Shown here one piece after another: positions 34,400-36,546 of a stretch of DNA of 64,000 bases. The notes beneath the pieces are model-generated. The model ran no database searches and was not told where the DNA came from. It saw only the letters and a list, made by a program, of their open reading frames with translations. The DNA is from Metabacillus sp. KUDC1714 (GTDB lineage Bacteria; Bacillota; Bacilli; Bacillales; Bacillaceae): positions 3,785,501 to 3,849,500 of the forward strand of contig NZ_CP055263.1 in assembly GCF_014217835.1 (NCBI RefSeq), written 5' to 3'. Position 1 is the stretch's first letter; every line of letters begins with the position of its first letter. A program made the position numbers and the translations under genes.

Positions 34400-35629
34400 G
34401 TGAATAATCCATTTTGGAAAGTGTTAATTGCTGATGATGAGCCAGTGATACGGGAAGGAATCAGAGATTCGGTAAATTGGTCTTCTCTGCAGATGGAAGT
34501 AAAAGCTGAAGCTGAAGACGGAGAGGAAGCTTTGGAGCTAGCATTGGAACACTCAATTGATATTTTATTAGCAGACTTAAATATGCCGATAATGGATGGA
34601 ATTGCTTTAATAAAACAGATTAGAGAAAAACTACCCCAATGTAAAATAGTCATTATTACTGGCCACGATGAATTCACATATGCTCAGGAAGCAGTAAGAT
34701 TAAATGTGACAGATTACATCTTAAAACCAGCTGATCCTAATCAATTAAAACAAGTATTAGATAGTGTTCGACTAGAGCTCGAAACGTCTGTCAAGCAGGA
34801 TCAGTATATAGAAATGGCGTCTAACCAAATTTCTAAAAACCTTTCTATGTTACGAGAGCAATTTTGTCGAGACTGGATAGAGGGACGTTTAGAAATTGCT
34901 GATATACAAAAGCAATTACAATTTTTGGAGCTGCCATTAAGAAGTCCCGAACTTTTTGCTGTCCTACAATGCCCAGAATACTTTGCAAATAAACCGTTAA
35001 TGAAAGAAAAAGAAAAACAGATGTTTATGTTTTCAATTGAAAATATCGTTTCAGAATTACTTGATCCATACAATAAAGTGATTTTTCGCGATGAAACCGG
35101 GCTAATTATAATTATTTTATGGAAATATGTACCTGATGAAATGTTTAAAAGAATTGAAAAAGTTATACAAGAGTATTTAAAAATGACAATAAACATGTAT
35201 GTTGAACTAGTTGAGGGAGAGTTGGAAGAAGTTTCAGTCGTATATAGACAATGCAAGGATCTAATGAAAAATGAGTTAACCATCTCTCCAATTGTCCGAC
35301 GTGCCAGACAATATATTGAAACACATTTTGCAGAACCGACAATTACGCTTGAATTAGTTGCAAAAACTTTACAAGTATCACCTGTCTATTTAAGTAGGAT
35401 GATTAAGCAGGAACTCGGAATGTCTTTCGTTAGTTTAGTAACCAATATGAAAATGAAAAAAGCGATCCAGCTGTTAAACTCTACTGATCTACCAATTGTA
35501 GAAATTGCTGAACAGGTTGGATATGATACTCAACATTATTTTAGCACAGCATTTAAAAAGGTGATGGGGGTTTCGCCGATTAAGTATCGGAAAAATTCAG
35601 GTGAAATTAAGTGGGACAATAGTTATTAA
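34400..35629 (+). CDS. araT: Response regulator with AraC-type DNA-binding domain, YesN type (AraT-like)
   Basis: 409 aa. N-terminal receiver domain with DDEP and the phosphorylation site Asp59 (LLADLNMPIMDG), a middle region with no recognised motif, and a C-terminal AraC/XylS double helix-turn-helix (PTITLELVAKTLQVSPVYLS and GYDTQHYFSTAFKKVMGVSP). The start is a GTG at 34400 with AAGGGGGG upstream. In Geobacillus the cognate regulator activates araEGH, which here begins 1.1 kb downstream after an inserted riboswitch-kinase unit. Confidence 0.92.
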   Translation: MNNPFWKVLIADDEPVIREGIRDSVNWSSLQMEVKAEAEDGEEALELALEHSIDILLADLNMPIMDGIALIKQIREKLPQCKIVIITGHDEFTYAQEAVRLNVTDYILKPADPNQLKQVLDSVRLELETSVKQDQYIEMASNQISKNLSMLREQFCRDWIEGRLEIADIQKQLQFLELPLRSPELFAVLQCPEYFANKPLMKEKEKQMFMFSIENIVSELLDPYNKVIFRDETGLIIIILWKYVPDEMFKRIEKVIQEYLKMTINMYVELVEGELEEVSVVYRQCKDLMKNELTISPIVRRARQYIETHFAEPTITLELVAKTLQVSPVYLSRMIKQELGMSFVSLVTNMKMKKAIQLLNSTDLPIVEIAEQVGYDTQHYFSTAFKKVMGVSPIKYRKNSGEIKWDNSY

Positions 35630-35658
35630 TTGACCTGCAGGTGAATAGAAATTATAAT
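35630..35658 (+). promoter_or_regulatory. Sigma-A promoter for the Mn riboswitch unit
   Basis: TTGACC at 35630-35635, 17-base spacer, TATAAT at 35653-35658. The predicted start point is about 25 bases before the aptamer, so this unit can be transcribed apart from araPST. Confidence 0.8.
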
Positions 35659-35687
35659 AGTCATAAATTTCATTCCTTTTTCCTTTT

Positions 35688-35771
35688 AAAGGGGAGTAGC
35701 TGTACAGCAAAGTCGTCAATACAGGTTTAACCTCGGCTATGTTGGCAACGGGAGTTGTTTGCGAGACCTTT
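35688..35771 (+). ncRNA. yybP-ykoY manganese riboswitch aptamer
   Basis: The sequence carries the conserved blocks of this riboswitch in order: AAAGGGGAGTAGC at the 5' end, AGTCGTCAATAC, CGGCT, GTTGGCAAC, and GCGAGACCTTT at the 3' end. AAAGG (35688-35692) pairs with CCTTT (35767-35771) to form P1. These blocks match the Lactococcus lactis yybP-ykoY aptamer as I recall it. The class binds Mn2+ and normally turns on export or metal-homeostasis genes. Confidence 0.93.
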
Positions 35772-35797
35772 ACCACTATTTGGTGAGGTCTTTTTTT
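35764..35797 (+). terminator. Riboswitch expression-platform terminator
   Basis: AGACCTT and ACCA (35764-35775) pair with TGGT and GAGGTCT (35781-35791), followed by seven T. The left arm is the same AGACCTT that closes the aptamer P1, so ligand binding and terminator formation exclude each other: an ON switch with Mn2+. Confidence 0.9.
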
Positions 35798-35867
35798 ATA
35801 CTTTCTTTTTAAATTAAACATCTTGTTAACATATAACAATGATAGATTTGAGAAAGGAGATGATTCG

Positions 35868-36503
35868 ATGAATAGTCATGATTATGCACATAGCATTGTA
35901 TTTGTATTTAAAAAGGGAAGCATACGAGTAAAGCAGCATCACACAGACCTTGAATTAATCGGAACAGGTAGAAGTGCCTGTGTATTTAGAATAAAGGGTA
36001 CGAAAAAAGTAATAAAAATATTTCCACCACAATTTATTCATATTGCCCAAGTAGAATCTGATATTTATAGATTGTTAACACACATCGACTATTTTCCAAC
36101 CGTATATGAAACAGGTCCAAATTTTCTTACAATGGACTATATTAAAGGAGATACTCTTTTTTCTTGCTTAAACAAAGGTATTCCTATTAATGAGAACCAT
36201 ATTAAAGAAGTTGAACATATATTAGAACTTGTTAGAAAAACAGGGTTAAACCCTTCTGACATTCACTTGCGAAATATCATTATTACCCCAGACAACAAAA
36301 TAAAAATGATTGATGTTGCCAGATTTAAACAACAAAAGCATTGTACTCAATGGGAAGATCTAAAGAATGCTTATGATCGCTATTATAAGCATCGCTTCTT
36401 TCCAAAAAGATTACCTGAATTTCTTTTGAATTTTATTGCAGCATTATATAAAAGAAAATTACTAGTTCTAAATCTAGCTAATAAGAAGAAGGTATCAGGT
36501 TGA
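35868..36503 (+). CDS. Protein-kinase-like protein under Mn riboswitch control
   Basis: Small kinase-fold protein of 211 aa; the start at 35868 has AAAGGAG 8 bases upstream. Kinase features in order: Gly-rich loop GTGRSACVFRI, ATP-site Lys50 in KKVIKIF, catalytic-loop equivalent SDIHLRNI (Asp131, Asn136), and metal-binding Asp149 in MIDVARF in place of DFG. No membrane segment or sensor domain is evident. Close in size to small Bacillus kinase-like proteins such as YrzF, but I cannot confirm orthology. It is a single-gene unit between araT and araE, with its own promoter, riboswitch and terminator. The substrate is unknown; Mn2+ as cofactor is plausible. Confidence 0.82.
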   Translation: MNSHDYAHSIVFVFKKGSIRVKQHHTDLELIGTGRSACVFRIKGTKKVIKIFPPQFIHIAQVESDIYRLLTHIDYFPTVYETGPNFLTMDYIKGDTLFSCLNKGIPINENHIKEVEHILELVRKTGLNPSDIHLRNIIITPDNKIKMIDVARFKQQKHCTQWEDLKNAYDRYYKHRFFPKRLPEFLLNFIAALYKRKLLVLNLANKKKVSG

Positions 36504-36516
36504 GATTAGTTTAGAT

Positions 36517-36546
36517 GTCTGCTTTCATAAAAGCAGGCTTCTTTTA
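36517..36546 (+). terminator. Intrinsic terminator after the kinase-like gene
   Basis: Stem GTCTGCTTT / AAAGCAGGC (36517-36525 and 36530-36538), 4-nt loop, then TTCTTTT. Confidence 0.88.

Follow-up and report, generated by a model that had tools for sequence, protein, structure and literature searches.

Does a metal-sensing RNA control a kinase? The question is raised by positions 35630 to 36546 of a stretch of 64,000 nucleotides from Metabacillus sp. KUDC1714 (NZ_CP055263.1, positions 3,785,501 to 3,849,500; the whole stretch is called the window below), where a leader resembling the yybP-ykoY manganese riboswitch precedes a gene for a small protein with a kinase fold. Our best explanation, which we consider highly probable as a whole, is a self-contained Mn2+-riboswitch/kinase unit that consists of a sigma-A promoter, a short-form yybP-ykoY aptamer, an overlapping terminator, the kinase gene and a terminator of its own. 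Such a unit had been proposed by an earlier, sequence-only reading of the locus. The leader comprises the following parts:

35665-35791: leader with the yybP-ykoY (Mn2+) riboswitch, preceding the gene of the 211-amino-acid (aa) kinase-fold protein
35681..35772, + strand: yybP-ykoY (Mn2+) aptamer, short form (RF00080 score, alignment, covariation, own model)
about 35688-35692, + strand: P1 5' strand of the aptamer
35691-35700, + strand: aptamer loop L1, GGGGAGUAGC
35718, + strand: aptamer adenosine matching A41 of L. lactis (comparison with the L. lactis sequence and passages of PMC9190785)
35761-35768, + strand: aptamer loop L3, GCGAGACC
about 35767-35771, + strand: P1 3' strand of the aptamer
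35764..35791, + strand: intrinsic terminator (expression platform), the left arm of which holds the P1 3' strand (folding; terminator scan)

The aptamer is real, and the fold of its class is conserved. We aligned 33 mutually dissimilar aptamers, most of them located upstream of relatives of the kinase; the set also holds the window leader, two TerC-linked and one Spo0M-linked aptamer of the same genome, and one that is divergent to a kinase. Of the 27 pairs in the consensus fold, 13 show changes on both sides (5.8 in shuffles), and 96.9% of the cells are paired (89.0% in shuffles). None of 500 shuffles, which are uncorrected for kinship, reached the observed covariation and pairing values, and the covariation signal is lost when the partners are shifted by 1-3 columns. 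L1, L3 and the adenosine equivalent to A41 are invariant in 33 of 33 rows, including the two TerC-linked aptamers. The A41 numbering was matched to position 35718 with an aptamer sequence taken to be that of L. lactis. Passages of PMC9190785 and PMC6754395 describe L1 and L3 as docking loops and A41 of L. lactis as an adenosine of the Mn2+-binding site.

On a stretch of 301 bases with the leader, RF00080 is the best Rfam family (22.1 bits, E 2.3e-4), and our own covariance model, built from 33 sequences including the window leader, gives this leader 93.8 bits. The gathering cut-off of RF00080 is 45 bits. At gathering score Rfam has no match anywhere in the window, and a genome-wide RF00080 search (E <=0.001) reports three other places in the genome, the window leader not among them. 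Checked with the riboswitch covariance model, the earlier assignment thus holds on the short stretch but stays below the Rfam cut-off. As the features of the class are present in a leader below the cut-off, we classify it as a short variant with the presumed mode of action of the yybP-ykoY class, and in this sense the proposed aptamer is confirmed by the best-matching family, the covarying fold and the invariant loops and adenosine. In a loose RF00080 scan of 13 loci, the cut-off is passed by the two TerC-linked copies from the genome of the window (51.8 and 45.3 bits), and the Spo0M-linked copy scores 29.2 bits. Among the aligned rows, a hairpin between GUAGC and GUCGUCA occurs in the two TerC-linked copies (L001, L002) and in no other, and the low Rfam scores of the short-form aptamers may partly be due to its absence. 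The short form also precedes a TerC gene in another Metabacillus genome (L144).

The sequence-only reading had suggested looking for the same pairing of aptamer and kinase gene in other genomes, and there it indeed recurs. The named-genome sample consists of the best 80 of 491 kinase relatives. By sequence pattern, 64 of these 80 loci have the aptamer upstream on the strand of the kinase, the same 64 are found by covariance model at >=83 bits, and in 49 of the 64 no open reading frame (ORF) of at least 70 codons lies in between. Since the best 80 loci are the nearest relatives, a wider sample of 199 genomes of the order was taken, 71 of which hold a kinase relative at E <=1e-40 (72 matches). 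For 26 matches, the aptamers listed genome-wide include one no more than 1.1 kb upstream (compared by eye), and a scan of about 3 kb upstream of the remaining 46 added 10 with an aptamer on the same strand. In total, 36 of 72 kinase matches in 35 of 199 genomes are linked to an aptamer, one of which precedes a broken gene copy; a rough estimate of the chance expectation is well under one. The two samples overlap, L099 and L121 represent one kinase, and one opposite-strand aptamer of the order sample (L197) was left uncounted. In a kinase tree of 100 rows (99 different), which leaves out L130 and counts L012 and L016, with an aptamer about 3 kb upstream, as linked, the aptamer label changes at least 11 times, compared to 21.8 times in shuffles. 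The resemblance or the position before the kinase gene might still be a product of chance, in agreement with the missing Rfam match at gathering score. We find this scarcely credible in view of the covariation, the repeated occurrence in both samples (64 of 80 and 36 of 72 loci), and the absence of the aptamer from all 30 control loci of a second kinase clade outside Metabacillus (see below). A chance origin of the pairing is rejected, as the comparative data refute it.

No strong upstream aptamer was found in 16 of the 80 named loci. Weak same-strand matches in L042 (21.8 bits) and L062 (24.4 bits) resemble half-deleted and decayed aptamers; in L042 (2821-2918) the 5' half is gone, and the 3' half and the terminator hairpin are kept before the kinase. 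A match in L103 (14.8 bits) is at chance level, and L095 and L107 have an aptamer on the opposite strand only. A second, broken kinase copy with the aptamer still upstream is located at G149:C1:2109321. In one genome of the order (G165) the aptamer model finds at least 9 places with E <=1e-12, and in another, two same-strand aptamers about 500 bases apart (G099:C3:427025 and 427536), away from the kinase, form a possible tandem switch.

Several findings weigh against a kinase unit under manganese control. The RF00080 gathering score is reached by neither the window nor any of 40 kinase loci (two sets of 20, of which 39 are distinct because L006 and L034 coincide), and even the loose scan matches RF00080 in just 4 of 10 kinase loci (24.2-38.3 bits), the other six having no match at E <=0.5. 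The hairpin missing from the window aptamer is present in the two TerC-linked copies of the very same genome. Our covariance model R1 was built in part from loci that were later scored with it. Half of the kinases in the order sample have no aptamer within 3 kb, and in the B. subtilis-type genus, which is taken for Bacillus, all 16 loci examined lack it. The missing hairpin and the low Rfam scores would also suit a variant of the yybP-ykoY class with specificity for another ion, such as Ca2+, Mg2+ or another transition metal, so that the kinase would be no output of manganese. Passages of PMC9495176 report that a three-way-junction member of the class, from mgtA of S. pneumoniae, binds Ca2+ more tightly than Mn2+, and a passage of the review PMC10043782 cautions about altered specificities in the class. 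We regard this variant as rather unlikely: neither the metal-site adenosine nor either of the docking loops varies, the short form also stands before TerC genes (in three loci with Spo0M and kinase, and in L144), and, according to the same passages of PMC9495176, transcription of mgtA is activated more by Mn2+ than by Ca2+.

We now return to the manganese switch and its likely mode of action. The terminator scan places the stem behind the aptamer at 35768-35788, folding widens it to about 35764-35791, and the folding z of the leader is -3.2. The P1 3' strand (about 35767-35771) lies inside the left arm of this terminator, just as the earlier reading had it; the overlap is one of sequence, and the mutual exclusion of both helices is predicted. 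Because the P1 3' strand is part of the left arm, a Mn2+-ON switch is expected. For the class, passages of PMC9190785 and PMC6754395 describe how Mn2+ stabilises P1.1 against the terminator. The switch step is adopted for the window leader on account of work on other members of the class, together with the overlap and the conservation found here; by this analogy we infer Mn2+ as the ligand and ON as the direction. At low Mn2+, the P1 3' strand would pair within the terminator and transcription would stop. At high Mn2+, the metal would dock L1 and L3, P1 would be held and the terminator blocked, so that RNA polymerase could read into the kinase gene. The kinase thus made would join the response to Mn2+ excess, to which TerC-type and further genes controlled by this switch would also belong.

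Many relatives extend this layout. A second U-tailed hairpin follows soon after the aptamer terminator (L041, L049, L069, L083 and others of L038-L112), the sequence of which varies by clade while the pairing is kept. A second hairpin of at least 11 pairs is present in 49 of the 64 named leaders linked to a kinase; shuffling stretches of all 93 leaders gives one in 4.9% of cases (pair-preserving shuffling, with single-base shuffling as fallback). In 49 of 51 predicted intermediates, for which there is no control, the left arm of the second terminator pairs with the right arm of the first over five or more pairs, and as a consequence both terminators would follow P1. In the 51 leaders, which include TerC- and Spo0M-linked ones, the own arms pair more strongly than shuffled arms by a mean of 4.7 kcal/mol, with p<0.05 in just 45%; compared with swapped arms, they are the stronger ones in 32 of the 51 leaders, by 1.4 kcal/mol on average. 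With controls this mixed, a coupling of the two terminators in the relatives is suggestive; the window itself has one terminator.

Within Metabacillus, the switch is found with two different kinases. Among 21 genomes, clade A, to which the window kinase belongs, occurs in 6 and clade B, with 31-35% identity to clade A, in 14; one genome has neither and none has both. If both were independent, the probability of such a lack of co-occurrence would be about 1e-4, uncorrected for kinship. The aptamer precedes the clade A kinase in 5 of 6 genomes; in the sixth (G004, L009) it is absent from the 353 bases upstream, and a more distant one is still possible. It precedes the clade B kinase in 13 of 14 genomes, in 11 of them within 1.5 kb. 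In the other two (L137 and L138), a reverse-transcriptase gene separates the aptamer, about 3 kb away, from the PAP2-kinase genes, and a group II intron maturase domain was detected in L137. In the fourteenth genome the aptamer was not found in about 2.9 kb. None of the 30 best clade B loci outside Metabacillus (59-66% identity) has the aptamer within 1.5 kb. It is also absent from 9 loci of a third kinase clade, whose neighbour gene presumably resembles proC. Judged by these sequence patterns, the simplest reading is that clades A and B recruited the same switch separately, probably with functional replacement of one kinase by the other. From this a broader picture may be drawn, which is offered tentatively and is slightly more doubtful than probable: a short subclass of Mn2+ riboswitches below the cut-off, with one helix fewer and often two successive, possibly competing terminators, would have been recruited separately by two kinase-fold clades replacing each other within one genus, and the response to manganese would hence require a Mn2+-induced kinase reaction in addition to export and metalation.

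The remainder of the unit consists of three features:

35630..35658, + strand: sigma-A type promoter TTGACC-17-TATAAT (consensus scan, 11 of 12 positions)
35868..36503, + strand: 211-aa kinase-fold protein with K50, D131, N136 and D149 (ORF, domain and fold comparisons)
36517..36538, + strand: intrinsic terminator of the kinase unit (terminator scan)

The protein has a two-lobed kinase fold with the catalytic Lys, Asp, Asn and Asp. K50, D131, N136 and D149 are invariant across 46 aligned sequences and the motif LNPxDIHxxN is present in 81 of 81, the window included in both sets. The earlier description of a kinase-fold ORF with these residues and a terminator of its own is hence borne out, and catalytic activity as a kinase is presumed. 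What substrate would it act on? The Pkinase (PF00069) score of 22.7 is under the curated cut-off of 31.7, the ABC1 score is 22.9 (cut-off 22.9), and ArkI is matched with E 0.0011. RIO, LanKC, PRPK and the RNA kinase ArkI are among the nearest solved folds, with fold scores nearly tied. In view of the Pkinase score and these nearest folds, the label "protein kinase" is insecure, and the suggested link to protein-phosphorylation signalling finds no support in this form. B. subtilis YrzF is taken as the relative and probably represents the orthologue group of the window kinase. The enzyme might instead phosphorylate a non-protein substrate such as RNA, lipid or an envelope sugar and take no part in signalling; we give this, which is compatible with the riboswitch, a little less than an even chance. 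It is opposed by nearly equal scores of PknB-type folds and by passages on YrzF, which is counted among the Hanks-type Ser/Thr kinases (PMC12747378) and is linked to MutL in the interaction network of PMC4205851.

Other genes share the switch. Neighbour genes were assigned by Pfam on representatives and by BLAST grouping for the others. Of the 64 loci, 12 have a Spo0M-like gene between aptamer and kinase, with TerC after it in 3 cases, and 2 have a DUF6376 lipoprotein gene there; 3' of the kinase, the DUF6376 gene occurs in 15 other loci and a CNNM/CBS transporter gene in 4, 3 of them with the aptamer. In several clade B genomes a PAP2 gene adjoins the kinase (Pfam-tested in two). Elsewhere in Metabacillus, the aptamer is found in front of TerC genes, of Spo0M with DUF1232 and of DUF5392. 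The genome of the window holds one of these (L003:1508-2611, at 854100), a sub-threshold yybP-ykoY aptamer before Spo0M-like and DUF1232 genes as another non-exporter target; the DUF5392 case is located in another Metabacillus genome (L146:707-1309). Passages of PMC10550928 describe TerC proteins in Mn2+ export and exoenzyme metalation, with LtaS among the clients.

Directly 5' of the promoter-like site lies a response-regulator gene (34400-35629). In the consensus scan, sites scoring at least 9 are common in shuffles (5.5 per shuffled region), and for this reason the promoter call draws on just its high score and its placement. Three terminators were found in the region (0.7 in shuffles). The genes downstream of the unit score above the NCBIfam cut-offs for ChvE, GguA and GguB; araEGH and araPST are gene names of the sequence-only reading. 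The regulator gene was found in 15 Metabacillus genomes at E <=1e-60, and 12 of these loci were examined. In 7 of 12 a sugar-binding protein is encoded by the next ORF (at least 90 codons) and the aptamer is absent; in 5 of 12 aptamer and kinase come after the regulator gene. This agrees with the claim that the unit interrupts a set of sugar-uptake genes. An insertion is the simpler reading than a loss from the other genomes, and the function of the unit need not be tied to sugar uptake.

What follows from such a unit? The level of a kinase may depend directly on manganese. A kinase target that recurs in 35 of 199 genomes of the order would tie metal excess to the phosphorylation of some substrate, and with Mn2+ as inducer an uncharacterised kinase family becomes directly accessible. 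The cut-off misses all 40 tested kinase loci, and Mn2+ regulons compiled from Rfam hits would accordingly lack members. The portions of the literature searched name Mn2+ exporters or TerC-type metalation proteins as targets of the switch; a kinase is not named there, and a listing in the tables of the class-defining 2015 papers or of Martin 2019 is possible.

Among known kinases, RIO, Bud32/PRPK, LanKC and ArkI share about 17-25% identity with the 211-aa protein, and its catalytic loop, LNPSDIHLRN, is unlike theirs. Closer is the YrzF group, where relatives in the genus taken for Bacillus are 45-51% identical to the window kinase and, as stated above, lack the upstream aptamer in 16 of 16 loci. 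Among known switches, the Mn2+/Ca2+ riboswitch of S. pneumoniae mgtA (Martin et al. 2019) is described in passages of PMC9495176 as a three-way-junction member, like that of the window, a likeness by description only; unlike the latter, it controls a P-type ATPase. With the RF00080 class (yoaB of L. lactis, X. oryzae, and ykoY, i.e., meeY, of B. subtilis), the window leader shares L1, L3, the metal-site adenosine, the overlap of P1 and terminator and the expected ON logic. It differs by lacking the hairpin of the TerC-linked copies and by its score under the Rfam cut-off, and many of its relatives, though not the window leader itself, differ further by a second terminator. The window aptamer stands before a kinase gene and not before a membrane exporter.
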